Origin: Candidatus Poribacteria bacterium
Lineage (GTDB): Bacteria; Poribacteria; WGA-4E; JAJDTR01
Length of the DNA: 64,000 nucleotides
Assembly (NCBI GenBank): GCA_028820655.1
Contig: JAPPIK010000055.1
Location: forward strand, 1 to 64,000
Direction: 5' to 3'
The stretch's first letter is position 1, and every line of letters begins with the position of its first letter. The notes below the pieces were generated by a model. It was not told the DNA's origin and made no database searches. It saw nothing but the letters and a program-made list of their open reading frames with translations. Below are positions 13,595 through 24,780 of this stretch, one piece after another. Both the position numbers and the translations under genes were made by a program.

Positions 13595-14251
13595 GTGCAA
13601 CAATACATTGAAATGGAAGGAGAAACCACTGAAGAAGCCTTGAACCTTGCCCTTGAGGAACTAGGTGTTGATCGAGATTTGGTCAATGTAAAGGTGCTGC
13701 GTGAACCGACCAAGGGGATCCTAAAGTTGGGCGCTAAACCCGCTCAAGTTAGGGTAACGCTCAAGGAGGATATTTCCGCCACACCCGAAGCGGTGCTAGA
13801 CGAAATCTTTTCCCGCATGGGGATCGAGGCAAGAATCGAGTCTCAAATCATTGATGGAAGCATCCATCTCGCCATTCGCAGCGACAGACCCGGATTGCTT
13901 ATTGGCAGACATGGACAAACGCTTGACGCGATCGAACACGTGTTGAACTGCATTCTGAGTAAGTCGTCTCTCGTGAAGCGCAAAGTATATATCGATGCCG
14001 AAGGCTATCGCGAACGCCGCGAACAAATGCTTGTTGACTTGGCATCAATCACGGCAAAAAAAGTGAGAGATACAGAGGAAGAAGTGGTTTTGGATCCTAT
14101 GCCACCCAGGGATCGCCGAGTCGTGCACCTTGCCTTGCAACCAGACAAAAGTGTCCACACGTATAGCCGTGGTGAAGGCTTAATGCGATACATTGTTGTG
14201 ACGCCGCGCGAAGTACCGAATGGGGACTCGGAGGAAAATGCTGCTGTCTGA
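13595..14251 (+). CDS. jag: Jag/KhpB RNA-binding protein
   Basis: 218 residues with three parts: the Jag_N domain (1-50, with GETTEEALNLALEELGV), a KH domain (about 70-145, with the GRHGQTLDAIEHVLN turn) and an R3H domain (about 150-215, with DPMPPRDRRVVHLAL). Jag binds RNA and, with KhpA, affects cell elongation in Firmicutes; the role elsewhere is less clear. The GTG start at 13595 follows AGGAGG nine bases upstream. It lies in its usual place after yidC and overlaps mnmE by 14 bases. Confidence 0.92.
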   Translation: MQQYIEMEGETTEEALNLALEELGVDRDLVNVKVLREPTKGILKLGAKPAQVRVTLKEDISATPEAVLDEIFSRMGIEARIESQIIDGSIHLAIRSDRPGLLIGRHGQTLDAIEHVLNCILSKSSLVKRKVYIDAEGYRERREQMLVDLASITAKKVRDTEEEVVLDPMPPRDRRVVHLALQPDKSVHTYSRGEGLMRYIVVTPREVPNGDSEENAAV

Positions 14252-15623
14252 CACCATCGCGGCAATCGCAACGCCTCATGGGGAAGGCGGCATCGGGATT
14301 GTTCGTGTCAGCGGCAGCCTCGCCATAGCAATTGCTTGCAAGGTTTTCAGATCTCCGCAACACGCTTCGCTTGTGGATTTTCCTTCGCATACGCTGAACT
14401 ACGGACACATCGTCGATCCAATTGAGGGCAATGTAATCGATGAAGTCATGCTAGGTATTATGCGCGCCCCAAAATCCTACACGGCAGAAGATGTCGTCGA
14501 ATTCAACTGCCACGGTGGGAGTTCAACACTGTCCACGGTTCTTGATTTGACGCTACAGGCAGGCGCACGCCTAGCGGAACCGGGAGAATTTACCCGCCGT
14601 GCTTTTCTCAACGGAAGAATCGATCTTGCCCAAGCCGAAGCGGTTGTCGATCTTATTCGGTCAAAGACCGACCTTGCCCGCCAGATCGCGATGGATAGTC
14701 TGTCTGGTCGGCTCTCCCGGGAAGTAAACTCCCTCAATGACCGGCTTGCCGACCTTCTCGCAGAAGTCGAGGCGTCGATTGATTTTCCCGAGGAAGAGCT
14801 TGATTTTTTGGATTTGACTGCTATGCGTCGAACCGCCCAGGCAATCCAAGATGGATTAGAACAGTTGATAGCCACGGCGTCAGATGGAAAAATCGTGCGA
14901 GATGGGATAAACATCGCAATTCTGGGCAAGCCGAACGTCGGTAAATCTAGCCTGCTGAACAAGCTGCTCAAATCGACGCGAGCAATCGTTACGGAAGTCC
15001 CCGGTACGACACGAGACACAATTCAGGAAACGCTGAATCTCAGAGGTATACCAGTCAACTTAACCGACACAGCGGGCATACGGAGGACGGAGGACATCGT
15101 TGAGAAGCAGGGAGTTGAGCGGAGTAAGAGCTATTTTGACCGCGCAGCCTTGATTCTGATGGTGTTTGACGCGTCGGAACAGTTGACAGACCTAGACATT
15201 GAGTTACTGCGGGAGGCCTCCTCCCGGCACGCTATTCTCGTTTTGAACAAGGTGGATTTGCCCTTCGCAACGTTTCCCAAGGATCTAAAATCCCATGCGC
15301 CTGAAAAAACGGTGATTCAAACCTCAACCCTTCATGGATCGGGGATCGAGGAGTTGAAATCAGCAGTGCTTCGGCATGTCATTGGAGGCGAGTGTGTTCT
15401 CGCAAACTCACCCATCGTCACCAATGTTCGTCATGACGATGCTTTACGCCGGGCACAATCCTCTGTTTCCCACGCGATAGAAAGTCTTGATGCGAAAATG
15501 CCGCCCGAGTTCACCGCCGTTGATTTGCGGAATAGTCTTGACGCTATCGGTGAAATCGTCGGCAATACTACAAGCGAGGATATACTTGATCGCATCTTTT
15601 CGCAGTTCTGCATCGGCAAGTAA
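14238..15623 (+). CDS. mnmE: tRNA uridine-5-carboxymethylaminomethyl(34) synthesis GTPase MnmE
   Basis: 461 residues. With MnmG it forms cmnm5U34 in tRNAs reading split codon boxes. The N-terminal folate-binding domain opens with DTIAAIATPHGEGGIGIVR. The G domain has GKPNVGKSS near residues 228-236, the DTAG switch II and NKVD. The protein ends in CIGK, the conserved C(I/L)GK catalytic Cys motif. I chose the ATG at 14238 because GGAGG lies just upstream and homologues begin here. mnmG does not follow, unlike in many chromosomes. Confidence 0.95.
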   Translation: MLLSDTIAAIATPHGEGGIGIVRVSGSLAIAIACKVFRSPQHASLVDFPSHTLNYGHIVDPIEGNVIDEVMLGIMRAPKSYTAEDVVEFNCHGGSSTLSTVLDLTLQAGARLAEPGEFTRRAFLNGRIDLAQAEAVVDLIRSKTDLARQIAMDSLSGRLSREVNSLNDRLADLLAEVEASIDFPEEELDFLDLTAMRRTAQAIQDGLEQLIATASDGKIVRDGINIAILGKPNVGKSSLLNKLLKSTRAIVTEVPGTTRDTIQETLNLRGIPVNLTDTAGIRRTEDIVEKQGVERSKSYFDRAALILMVFDASEQLTDLDIELLREASSRHAILVLNKVDLPFATFPKDLKSHAPEKTVIQTSTLHGSGIEELKSAVLRHVIGGECVLANSPIVTNVRHDDALRRAQSSVSHAIESLDAKMPPEFTAVDLRNSLDAIGEIVGNTTSEDILDRIFSQFCIGK

Positions 15624-15790: not shown

Positions 15791-16012
15791 ATGCTAACCC
15801 CAAAAGAACAATGGTGCCATCGTTGTAATCGTTATGTGGCGACTGAGGCAAAGCATGCGAAAGTTGGAAAACTCGGTAGGCTGGCGAAGATCGTTGTCAC
15901 TTGTCGTAAGTGCCGAACTACACTGAGTAGCAAGACAACCAGTGCGTCTATCCTTGAGAAGATTGCGGCGGAGACACCGACGAAAGAAGCGGAAAACCCA
16001 GAAAAGAAATAG
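15791..16012 (+). CDS. Small zinc-ribbon-like protein of unknown function
   Basis: 73 residues. Two CxxC pairs, CHRC at residues 9-12 and CRKC near 38-41, fit one zinc-binding knuckle pair around a basic helix (KHAKVGKLGRLAKI). The end is charged, with EAENPEKK. I do not recognise the family; nucleic-acid or protein binding are both possible. The ATG at 15791 has AAAGGAG seven bases upstream; an in-frame ATG at 15683 has no good site. The gene lies between mnmE and the probable selenoprotein, each separated by over 150 bases. Confidence 0.65.
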   Translation: MLTPKEQWCHRCNRYVATEAKHAKVGKLGRLAKIVVTCRKCRTTLSSKTTSASILEKIAAETPTKEAENPEKK

Positions 16013-16166
16013 GACATTCTGTGTCGTGTAGCCGACAAGCGCCAACATCCGTGACGCGAGTGGTTTCAAAATCCCTTGGCGAACCGAAATCGGCAATAGG
16101 CTTATACCCAAACAAGGATTCAATCTTTTCATCCTGAATGCATTTCAATACATAAGGAGACAATTC

Positions 16167-17075
16167 ATGTTAAGTCAAATCCGAAGACATCATTGGGCGG
16201 CTTTGATTGTGACCATGTCAATGGCCGCCATTGTGGCCTCGCCCCTATACGCAGCACAGCAGGTTAAGTGGGAAAAATCGTTAAAGGCGGGGATGGAAAA
16301 AGCCAAAGAAGCCGGCAAGCCGATGATAATTGACTTCTTCACGGAGTGGTGAGGGTCATGCAAGCGGCTGGATGCCACTACATTCCACAATGAGAAAGTT
16401 GCTGAAGTGTCGAAAAAATTCGTAAACCTGAAAATTGATATTGAAGCCGACCCCGATAATCTCGCTGCCTACAAGAAATATAGCAGGAGCCCCGGGGTTC
16501 CGGCAGTTGCATTCGTTGATTTCGAGGGCAACCTCATCAGCGAACCTCCGATCAATTTAGCATTTGATCCAGAGAAGTTTGTCCTTGAGATGGAAAAAAC
16601 GCTTGAAGTTGAGGAAGATCTGAAGCGGTTAAATGCTAAACTAGGGGAGAACCCGAATGATCCGGAGGCGAATGCCCAAATCGCGCTTATCTATCTGAAG
16701 CGCAACAATTTGGAGAAAGGATCACCGCTCGCTGATAAAGCGTTTAACCTGGATCCGGAGAATAGGACGGGACATCTGCCGGAGTTGCATATTAGCTTGG
16801 GACTCTATTACGGCAATCACATTGATGACGAAAACGCCGAAGAGTATTTTCAAAAAGCGGAAAGCCACTTCAAGGCTGTGATTGAACAATACTCCGACAG
16901 CAAGGATCATGAACCGGCACATTACTATCTGGCTGTAATCTACGTGGCTCAAGAAATGTACGACCAAGCGATTCCACTGCTTGAGAAATTGAGCGACACA
17001 TCAGATGCAGACACGAGAACAGCGGCAATGCAGATGTTGCAAATCGCCAGAGAAGAAGCTAACACACGGAAATGA
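16167..17075 (+). CDS. Exported thioredoxin-TPR protein with probable selenocysteine at residue 62 (in-frame TGA)
   Basis: Read through the TGA at 16350-16352, the frame gives 302 residues. There is a signal peptide (1-30, ending SPLYAAQQ) and a thioredoxin-like domain with DFFTEW, the TGA, then GSCKRLDATTF. A cis-Pro loop GVPAVAFVDFEGN and a TPR region (about 150-300) follow. Thioredoxin-like proteins of this type normally read WCxxC, so TGA falls exactly on the first catalytic Cys, giving UGSC. Homology runs unbroken on both sides in one frame, and a SECIS-like hairpin follows. AAGGAG precedes the ATG. Alternatives are a sequencing error or a nonsense mutation, in which case two fragments (16167-16352 and 16407-17075) would be annotated. 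Confidence 0.8.
16353..16383 (+). promoter_or_regulatory. Candidate bacterial SECIS element
   Basis: The bases directly after the TGA can fold. GGC (16366-16368) pairs with GCC (16374-16376) around the apical loop TGGAT. Below a C-A mismatch come AG/CT and, past a small internal loop, ATG/CAT at 16358-16360 and 16381-16383. The apical loop starts 16 bases after the TGA and has G as its second base, within the spacing and loop rules published for bacterial SECIS elements. The stem is short, so this is support, not proof. Confidence 0.5.
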
Positions 17076-17119: not shown

Positions 17120-17156
17120 AACGCCTATATCGAATACGGTATAGGCGTTTTTATTT
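17120..17156 (+). terminator. Rho-independent terminator, probably bidirectional
   Basis: Ten-base stem AACGCCTATA/TATAGGCGTT (17120-17129 and 17140-17149) followed by a T-rich run on the plus strand and preceded by A on the same strand. It ends both the thioredoxin-TPR gene and the convergent pseudouridine synthase gene, whose last codons overlap it. Confidence 0.85.
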
Positions 17157-17855
17157 TCGGAGATTATCAGTCTCGGTCGGACTCAGCATCCGATATCGAC
17201 CAACCGGTAAATCGCCCAGCATCAATTCCCCGATTGCAATGCGCTTCAGAAAGGTGACTTCATGCTTCACTGCTTGAAACATACGGCGAATCTGCCGTTT
17301 CTTTCCTTCGCGGATACTGATTCTGAATTGTGTATGGTCTTGGCGATGTGAGATTGGCGCAATCTCCGCTTGAGATGTAAACCCTCCTTTGATTTTGACG
17401 CCCTTGCGCAATCGGTGAATCGCCTTCTTGCTGGGTTTGCCGCGCACCCATGCGATATATGTTTTTTTGACTTCGTGCCGCGGGTGCGTTAAACGATTTG
17501 CGAATTCCCCGTCGTTCGTCAGGAGCAGCAACCCTTCCGTATCCCGGTCCAGTCGTCCTACCGGGTAGATTCTTTCGGGAATGTCCTTGACAAACTCCAT
17601 AACCGTCGGGCGGTGACGTTCATCGCGCACCGTTGTCACGTATCCCGGCGGCTTGTTGAGCATCAAATAGACCGGTTTGGGCGTCCCTTCGACAGGCTGC
17701 CCATCAACTTCGATGAAGTCTCTGTCGAGTTCGATGTGTGTACCTGGGATCAGTACACGTTTATTGTTGACGGTAACTCTGCCCGCTATTATCTGTTTCT
17801 GCGCAGTTCGCCGGGAAGCGACGCCAGATTTGGCCAGATACTTTTCGAGGCGCAT
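17151..17855 (-). CDS. rluB: rRNA pseudouridine synthase, RsuA/RluB/RluE/RluF family
   Basis: 234 residues. An N-terminal S4 RNA-binding domain (MRLEKYLAKSGVASRRTAQKQI, residues 1-60) leads into the synthase domain with the catalytic Asp motif GRLDRDTEGLLLLTNDG near residues 100-116. The end has the REGKKRQIRRMF motif. The family modifies large or small subunit rRNA; length and S4 domain fit RluB best, but the exact uridine is inferred. It faces the thioredoxin-TPR gene and shares its terminator. Confidence 0.88.
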   Translation of the reverse strand: MRLEKYLAKSGVASRRTAQKQIIAGRVTVNNKRVLIPGTHIELDRDFIEVDGQPVEGTPKPVYLMLNKPPGYVTTVRDERHRPTVMEFVKDIPERIYPVGRLDRDTEGLLLLTNDGEFANRLTHPRHEVKKTYIAWVRGKPSKKAIHRLRKGVKIKGGFTSQAEIAPISHRQDHTQFRISIREGKKRQIRRMFQAVKHEVTFLKRIAIGELMLGDLPVGRYRMLSPTETDNLRK

Positions 17856-22460: not shown

Positions 22461-23900
22461 CTAATTTAGTGTATGCCCCGACAGATCGCCTGCAATTGTC
22501 AATCGACGCTGCTGCGTGAAAGTCCGCGGCCGCGTAAACCCCTCTCCGGTTGGCCCCGCAATCGTCATCGCCAGAAACCCTTCTCCGCCCAAGCCGGCAC
22601 AGGCAAATGACGGCGCATTGACCACAACAATGTTACAATCCATCGCTTTGTTAAATTGTGTGATTCTTTTCATGTCATTCGTGTGGAGAATCGCGGTATG
22701 TCCGCGCCCGCCCTCGGCTCTTACGGCGCCCTTAAGCGCTTCCTCGAAGTTTCGCATCCGCGCAACTGGAAGGATAGGCATAAGGTACTCGTCAATGATA
22801 AAAGTGTGGTCGGCAGGGACATCCGCTACAATCGCCACCGTGTTAGCCGATGCCTTGATTCGCGCGGCATCCAAGATTTCACTCGCATCTTTCCCGATGA
22901 GGTCTTTGTTCACATCTCCATCTTTAATCACGGCCCTCTCCACGGCTTTGAGCTCGTTCGCTTTAAGCACATAACCACCGTTTTTCGCCAGTTCGCGAAC
23001 GGTTTCATTGGCAACAGATTCGACCACAAACAACGCCTTTTCGCCAATGCAGAGGAGATTATTGTCAAAGCTTGTGCCGTCGATGGTATGTTTCGCGGCT
23101 TTGGCTATATCCGCGGTTTCGTCAATCAGAGCAGGCGGATTGCCCGGACCCGCCGCAATCGCTTTCTTCCCGCTGGTCAACGCCGCCTTTACCACGCTGG
23201 GACCGCCGGTTGCCACGACCATGGAGATGTCGTCGTGATTCATGATCTCTTTTACGGTGCGGAGCGTCGCGTCGGCAACGGCGGTCAACAAATCCGGTGG
23301 GCCGCCAGACTTTACGACTGCTTCGTTTATAACGTGCATAGTTTCATGCGTGCAGTTTGCTGCATTCGGGTGCGGACTAAATACCACCGCGTTTCCGGCC
23401 GAGAGCATTATTATAGCGTGGTTGATAACCGTTGAGGTCGGATTGGTCGTCGGTGTAATTGAGTGAATCACGCCATACGGAACATATTCAACCAGCAGCG
23501 CTCCCTCATCGCCTGAAGAAGCCTCGGATTGCAAATCTTCCACTCCCGGTGAAAGATTGACCGCACCTTCATTCTTCATCAGTTTGTGTGCGGCGTTTCC
23601 CATTCCCGTGTCTTCAACTGCCAGATCAGCGAGAGATTGAGCGTTTTCGAGAGCGGCGCGCTTGATTGCTTCAATGATCTCCCTGCGCTCGGCAAATCCG
23701 AGCCGCGTAAATTCTTCTTGCGCTTGCTTGGCTGCCATGACCGCTTGATCGGTACTCGGATGGATTCCTGATTGCGATCTGGAACCAACACCGGCTTTCG
23801 ATCTTTCTTCCGACGCGCTTGGAATACGCCCTTCACTTCGAAGATTACTGATGACTTGCGATACAATCTCTTCAATCTGATCAGGGTTAATTTCCGCCAT
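22461..23900 (-). CDS. CoA-acylating aldehyde dehydrogenase of a microcompartment (EutE/PduP-like)
   Basis: 479 residues. Oxidises an aldehyde to acyl-CoA with NAD. The catalytic Cys284 sits in FDNNLLCIGEK, and GNAVVFSPHPNA near 169-180 and TGGPSVVKAAL are typical of the EutE/PduP branch. The N-terminus NPDQIEEIVSQVISNL is an amphipathic helix followed by a low-complexity linker (residues 25-50), the form of encapsulation peptides that dock enzymes into shells. A shell-protein gene lies immediately upstream. The aldehyde is not identifiable. Cofactor NAD is inferred from the family. Confidence 0.92.
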   Translation of the reverse strand: MAEINPDQIEEIVSQVISNLRSEGRIPSASEERSKAGVGSRSQSGIHPSTDQAVMAAKQAQEEFTRLGFAERREIIEAIKRAALENAQSLADLAVEDTGMGNAAHKLMKNEGAVNLSPGVEDLQSEASSGDEGALLVEYVPYGVIHSITPTTNPTSTVINHAIIMLSAGNAVVFSPHPNAANCTHETMHVINEAVVKSGGPPDLLTAVADATLRTVKEIMNHDDISMVVATGGPSVVKAALTSGKKAIAAGPGNPPALIDETADIAKAAKHTIDGTSFDNNLLCIGEKALFVVESVANETVRELAKNGGYVLKANELKAVERAVIKDGDVNKDLIGKDASEILDAARIKASANTVAIVADVPADHTFIIDEYLMPILPVARMRNFEEALKGAVRAEGGRGHTAILHTNDMKRITQFNKAMDCNIVVVNAPSFACAGLGGEGFLAMTIAGPTGEGFTRPRTFTQQRRLTIAGDLSGHTLN

Positions 23901-23997
23901 ATATACCTCCGATTCCAGGGGTTAGGCTTACAGACTTGAGGCTCGGAACGGGAATGGTTGATCACTTCCCGACGACGAATACAGAGCCTCCGCGTCT

Positions 23998-24273
23998 TTA
24001 ACCCTGAGAGAGCATATTTTCCACATCTGCGTGCGGACGTGGGATTACATGGACGGAAATGAGTTCACCAACATCCTTGGCGGCTTCCGCGCCCGCGTCC
24101 GTCGCCGCTTGCACAGCTCCCACATCGCCTCTCACCATAACAGTAACATATCCCGCGCCAATCTGCTCTCTGCCAATGAGCGAGACATTAGCCGCCTTAA
24201 CCATTGTGTCTGCCGCCTCAATTGCGGCAACAAGACCTCTCGTTTCAATCAATCCCAATGCTTCACTTGCCAT
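23998..24273 (-). CDS. Bacterial microcompartment shell protein, BMC-H type
   Basis: 91 residues, one BMC domain: [26 protein letters not shown], then the pore loop QIGAG at 37-41, then [17 protein letters not shown] and [11 protein letters not shown]-like [11 protein letters not shown]. The hexamer tiles the shell and its pore passes substrates; the pore residue pattern is close to PduA (KIGSG). The ATG at 24273 has GGGAGG eleven bases upstream; an earlier in-frame ATG at 24330 would add an odd tail. It is first in the operon. No pentamer (BMC-P), PduL or signature enzyme gene lies in the window, so the shell needs parts from elsewhere. Confidence 0.95.
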
Positions 24274-24780
24274 GTCGTTTGAGACCTCCCAAATGTTCGA
24301 ACTGTAGAAACTGAATTGTGGGTTGACCACTGGACAGACCGTTCATACAGGTCCCTCAACCCGCCCTCATAATAGCATAATCTTCCGGCTCTTGCAACCC
24401 GCACTTTACAATCGCACTCGACCGCATGCATCGAGGCTGATTTTGGCGTGTGCAAGGCAACGTCATAACTGGGATGAACCCTTCGGTTACGAAGGGACAA
24501 TTGTTGAGTGTGCCGTCGTCGTGTATTGGATTTTGATGGGGAAGTGCGGCGCTACCGGTCCATGCGCCGCGAGCTGTCCTGAATCAACGAGCCGTAGGCG
24601 GAAGATATGGACGAGTTCGACTACACATCAACCTGATGTGGATTGGTAGAAAGGCGTGGGGTATGGTATTGATGATTTCGTCGTTATCGCACCCATCCCA
24701 TACCCAGCTCAGACACGAAAATAGATAGGCGAGAAATAATATATCAACTTGACCGATCAGATCGCGGACAGACATCCGGC
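24274..24780. other. Intergenic region before the microcompartment operon
   Basis: About 500 bases without a convincing gene. A plus-strand open frame (24323-24649) is rejected. The promoter of the shell-protein operon should be here or further upstream; I see no strong sigma-70 or sigma-54 match. Confidence 0.5.

Follow-up and report, generated by a model that had tools for sequence, protein, structure and literature searches.

Several described systems come close to the protein studied here. In the bacterial Sec-thioredoxins and thiol:disulfide interchange selenoproteins (the PF00085 and PF13098 rows in Table 1 of PMC13188914), selenocysteine (Sec) replaces the first cysteine of a CxxC motif within a thioredoxin fold, giving UxxC, and the SECIS element lies right after the UGA. 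These are thioredoxin-domain families, and none of those listed joins thioredoxin to TPR repeats. The 119 prokaryotic selenoprotein families catalogued in 2026 include no thioredoxin-TPR protein, and the catalogue does not mention Poribacteria. TsoB (NF045694), a rhodanese/DsbD fusion-like selenoprotein, has two Sec residues in a UxxxxU motif, while trx7_PDZ_seleno (NF041199), a Thioredoxin_7 selenoprotein, combines CxxU with a PDZ domain. Among proteins without Sec, CnoX/YbbN carries a thioredoxin domain followed by C-terminal TPR, with SxxC in E. coli and CxxC in Caulobacter, and is a partner of cytoplasmic GroEL. The C-terminal (gamma) domain of DsbD has a Cys-Cys pair and is anchored to a membrane reductase. 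SelA and SelB have been noted in symbiont bins of the sponge microbiome (PMC5649159), where no Sec-thioredoxin/TPR protein is mentioned, and our literature search of open-licence PMC papers found no earlier description of such a protein.

The window (the whole stretch of Candidatus Poribacteria DNA that was analysed, 64,000 nucleotides) carries a gene that combines features of these systems. Its product resembles the UxxC families in the thioredoxin fold, in the placement of Sec and in the predicted SECIS, but is Thioredoxin_7/DsbD-gamma-like, apparently exported and extended by TPR repeats. TsoB gave the best NCBIfam match, at its DsbD-gamma end (E 1.1e-21; 76.5 bits, cut-off 805), but our protein has a single UxxC and lacks the rhodanese and membrane parts. 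The trx7_PDZ_seleno model scored 31.4 bits (cut-off 300), its CxxU and PDZ contrasting with UxxC and TPR here, and none of the NCBIfam models reached its cut-off. The domain order is that of CnoX/YbbN; compared with DsbD-gamma, a Sec-Cys pair linked to TPR replaces a Cys-Cys pair anchored to a membrane reductase. Family and architecture are new, while the kind to which they belong is well known; the family is well supported, and it adds the combination of an apparently exported UxxC thioredoxin with TPR to the known selenoproteins. We hold with high confidence that the gene encodes a true selenoprotein in which UGA62 is read as Sec; the product would act as an exported thiol-disulfide oxidoreductase whose TPR repeats may bind clients or partners.

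The coding sequence (16167–17075, + strand) runs from ATG 16167 to a TGA terminator at 17073–17075 and is preceded by a Shine-Dalgarno sequence, AAGGAG (16154–16159, +), which is kept in most orthologues. It contains exactly one internal stop, the TGA of codon 62 (16350–16352, +), and with this codon read as Sec the product has 302 residues. As the earlier note on this DNA had claimed, the TGA falls on the first residue of a thioredoxin CxxC motif, immediately after a Trp (DFFTEW-U-GSCKRLD, that is, WUGSC). The resolving Cys65 of the UxxC (16359–16361, +) is invariant in the orthologue alignment. The frame also proved continuous on both sides of the TGA, as claimed, and the Thioredoxin_7 match extends across it. 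Since the gene's own terminator is TGA as well, UGA would have both meanings inside a single gene.

Of 59 genomes searched from the same order, 58 contained the gene; its 62 copies are 31–78% identical to the window protein, and all of them have TGA at codon 62, never TAA or TAG. One member of the order, G002, lacks the gene. The search extended to the phylum recovered the TGA form in 72 of the order's 73 genomes and in a single genome from a different family of the class (locus L134 of G070), where the site reads DTUPACRKLDATTF. The same TGA is present in an independent assembly of a Candidatus Poribacteria member of the same genus (L054). Both searches showed similarity across the TGA. When the window gene was compared with a 78%-identical relative, pN/pS was 0.203 5′ of the TGA and 0.215 3′ of it, and the two sides were likewise alike in seven other pairs. 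A column invariant in 62 of 62 orthologues, together with equal purifying selection on both sides, excludes a TGA that arose by chance. A single in-frame stop is a classic sign of a sequencing error or a decayed gene, but these 72 genomes were assembled separately and selection is the same before and after the codon. Thus the cross-genome and selection comparisons refute a base error or pseudogene, a reading to which we assign a negligible probability.

The earlier note had raised the replacement of TGA by a Cys codon in homologues. This was not seen: the searches of the order and the phylum found no Cys orthologue, and Sec is invariant in the order. Cys forms occurred only in other thioredoxin families or paralogues, such as a DsbD-like protein of 638 aa on contig 4 of the host genome (L052) and homologues in other phyla (L055–L062). 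In six genomes that hold the nearest Cys relatives from other phyla, thioredoxin domains were found, but no full-length orthologue with either Cys or Sec. Sec that is invariant in the sampled order, not alternating with Cys, makes this family well suited to studying why selenium is needed outside the cytoplasm.

If the TGA were a real stop, the locus would yield a 61-residue exported peptide and a separate TPR protein started at the internal GTG 16407. Gene callers would give just this split, and a 222-aa ORF from GTG 16407 does exist. However, the internal ORF leaves out the helix of the resolving Cys, although few parts of the protein are as well conserved as the residues between the TGA and the GTG (GSCKRLDATTF). 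Two separate products also fit poorly with a Thioredoxin_7 match that spans the TGA and with 62 genes that never use TAA or TAG at this site, and they leave the frozen codons of the hairpin described below unexplained. We therefore consider a split gene very unlikely and prefer the selenoprotein reading. Standard annotation splits or shortens the gene, so that its annotation in public Poribacteria genomes is probably wrong.

The components needed for Sec insertion, selA, selB, selD and tRNA-Sec, were all present in the host genome, a draft of 5.88 Mb that is 95% complete. The tRNA-Sec (76.6 bits, cut-off 47; anticodon TCA), selB (351 bits) and selA (591 bits) are clustered within 3.5 kb on contig 51. 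The selD gene (363 bits) lies on contig 22 and itself carries one in-frame TGA. SelD is a well-known selenoprotein, so UGA seems to be decoded as Sec in this organism for at least one family that is already established. Among the relatives, selA scored above the cut-off in 55 of 59 genomes; its absence at full score from the other four (G021, G034, G043, G051) is most simply explained by gaps in draft assemblies.

A frame that is open on either side of the UGA would also be compatible with its translation as an ordinary amino acid, through reassignment to Trp or Gly or through general readthrough. Release factor 2 is present in the genome, and among the 47 open frames of at least 200 codons in the window, counted purely mechanically, 17 end in TGA, 16 in TAA and 14 in TAG; UGA is thus not reassigned. 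The gene itself ends in TGA, the Sec machinery is complete, and the UGA stands at the position of the catalytic Cys of the thioredoxin fold, all of which argue against an ordinary amino acid and leave that reading extremely improbable. The proposal that the codon is decoded as Sec is supported by the machinery, the invariant TGA and the similarity across it. Judged from these sequence comparisons, the gene very probably represents a genuine, previously uncatalogued selenoprotein family.

Just downstream of the TGA we predict a bacterial SECIS hairpin (16358–16383, +), based on codon constraint, pair counts, RNAalifold and the published model (PMC13188914). With the T of the TGA numbered 0, the core stem spans +15 to +27 (16365–16377, +) and reads CGGC-UGGAU-GCCG in most genes, with the pentaloop UGGAU at 16369–16373 (+). 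Synonymous variation is strongly reduced here: among amino-acid-conserved columns, normalised codon entropy is 0.05 for R67, 0.00 for L68, 0.22 for D69 and 0.23 for A70, against a gene mean of 0.82. The codons concerned are CGG (55 of 56 genes), CTG (62 of 62), GAT (60 of 62) and, for the Ala, GCC in 56 genes and GCT in 6. The third positions +5 and +8, directly 3′ of the TGA, vary freely, and the codon freeze is therefore not general to the active site.

At pair +16/+26, 56 genes have G-C and six have A-U. In the latter, which are the only six with GCT, an Arg-to-Gln change and a synonymous Ala change occur together. In one control of the pair count, five cells changed on both sides were observed against 0.5 expected, and none of 500 shuffles reached this value, in a comparison that leaves kinship uncontrolled; the compensatory change may have arisen just once, within one subclade. 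Some of the conserved pairs fall on invariant amino acids. L134, the distant Sec homologue, retains the loop motif GCUGGAUGC; the Cys paralogues do not have it and lack the hairpin stem except by chance.

The published bSECIS model (PMC13188914) describes a G in the first two loop positions, a loop of 3–9 nt, a stem of at least 4 bp, a spacing of 16–37 nt and an MFE of at most −7.5. The consensus hairpin fits this model, with a 5-nt loop, G as its second base and a distance of 16 nt from the UGA. The MFE is at or below −7.5 in 54 of 62 genes (−8.5 in the window); the predicted fold keeps UGGAU as the loop in only 46 of 62, and the folding energy is not below that of shuffles. The hairpin is short, and of its four core pairs one is mismatched in the window and one in its sister (C15-A27; A17-C25), so that RNAalifold retains only three pairs. 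Rfam at gathering thresholds gave no SECIS match in the window; bacterial SECIS elements are poorly covered by Rfam. Applied to the whole genome, a covariance model of the hairpin convincingly matched only the Sec-thioredoxin gene. Three weak matches (E 0.8–4) had no plausible frame and were rejected as selenoprotein sites; the model thus reveals no further selenoproteins. The organism's own selD (L018) has its in-frame TGA in the context GUASKLD, with CUGGAU shortly downstream at a spacing unlike that of the Sec-thioredoxin hairpin. Judging by this motif, selD and the Sec-thioredoxin may share a SelB-recognition loop in the Poribacteria lineage.

The domain layout agrees with what the earlier note had proposed, namely a signal peptide and the first strands of the thioredoxin before the TGA, and the cis-Pro loop and TPR repeats after it. 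Residues 1–29 (16167–16253, +) look by eye like a probable Sec-type signal peptide, with a basic n-region, a hydrophobic core and cleavage near LYA-AQ, and the layout is similar in most orthologues. A Thioredoxin_7/DsbD-gamma-like domain covers residues 35–118 (16269–16520, +), as indicated by the structure model and by the Pfam match to PF13899 (E 1.1e-17; 64.3 bits, gathering cut-off 27). The invariant Pro112 (16500–16502, +), in a GVPAV loop, occupies the cis-Pro position of the fold. The TPR region extends over about residues 150–284 (16614–17018, +), according to Pfam and to the helical repeat in the model. Further Pfam matches on the read-through protein were Thioredox_DsbH, Thioredoxin and several TPR families. 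An AlphaFold model built from a 10-sequence alignment had a pLDDT of 75 overall and about 90 in the thioredoxin domain, the remainder being helical repeats of lower confidence; the single-sequence model was poor (pLDDT 45). Among solved structures, DsbD-gamma and other exported disulfide reductases of this type are closest to the thioredoxin domain.

The resemblance to CnoX/YbbN allows for another function, which competes with the functional part of our explanation and not with Sec decoding. As a chaperedoxin, the selenoprotein would hold unfolded exported proteins by its TPR and repair or protect their cysteines by its Sec-thioredoxin. The order of the domains is the same as in CnoX/YbbN, Foldseek lists YbbN (3qou) and a Salmonella homologue (3qdn), a profile search matched E. 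coli CnoX (8e-7), and Caulobacter CnoX has a CxxC and oxidoreductase activity (PMC8129009). Yet the CnoX match covers only the thioredoxin domain and the start of the TPR, so that homology over the full length, including the TPR of CnoX, was not obtained, and the TPRs are not superposable (rmsd about 20 Å). Additionally, CnoX is described with cytoplasmic GroEL/ES whereas our protein appears exported, and the thioredoxin domain is nearer to DsbD-gamma. A chaperedoxin function is thus possible but rather unlikely. We would be equally tentative about the wider proposal of an order-wide, obligately selenium-dependent extracytoplasmic chaperedoxin, in which a Sec-thioredoxin is joined to a TPR client holder, no Cys orthologue is found and the UGGAU-loop SECIS is lineage-specific.

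The role that we infer as most likely is that of a thiol-disulfide oxidoreductase outside the cytoplasm, which would dock its clients through the TPR repeats and work in the reductase direction (not as an oxidase or isomerase). SelB and Sec-tRNA(UCA) would read UGA62 as selenocysteine, directed by the small hairpin whose UGGAU loop begins 16 nt after the UGA, and the product is predicted to be exported to the extracytoplasmic space. There, Sec62 would attack a disulfide or an oxidised thiol, and Cys65, within the DsbD-gamma-like thioredoxin domain, would resolve the selenenylsulfide; attack by Sec and resolution by Cys are established for other UxxC thioredoxins. The C-terminal TPR repeats would be the putative binding site for client or partner proteins, and electrons may perhaps come from the DsbD-like paralogue on contig 4.

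The gene occupies a conserved locus with the order mnmE, small CxxC ORF, Sec-thioredoxin, rsuA-like. In the window, mnmE (14220–15623, +) lies upstream, as it does for 49 of the 62 orthologues. Between it and the Sec gene is a zinc-ribbon-like ORF of 73 residues with a CxxC...CxxC pattern (15791–16012, +), conserved in this place throughout the order and found at 68 loci when redundant loci are counted, with a Zn_ribbon_19 Pfam match below the cut-off. Downstream, an RsuA-type pseudouridine synthase (17151–17855, −) is convergent in 47 of 62 cases. This common position supports orthology and vertical inheritance.

Several variants of the protein were observed in related genomes. A second, truncated Sec copy (L135, contig C50 of G071) has a lipoprotein-like N-terminus (SSGCTA) and keeps the TGA and the same hairpin. 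Second copies in genus g2 (L089, L091, L092, L094) extend further in the TPR part, show no evident signal peptide and are possibly a cytoplasmic form. In G018, a 789-aa frame (L133:1428–3794, +) combines ECF sigma-factor regions 2 and 4 with a Cys-type Thioredoxin_7 with TPR homology and a PD40 beta-propeller; this sigma-factor/redox fusion is related to the Sec protein and has no Sec. Elsewhere in the window (22461–24330, −), a BMC-domain-like shell protein adjoins an aldehyde dehydrogenase, which, read by eye, suggests a bacterial microcompartment locus.
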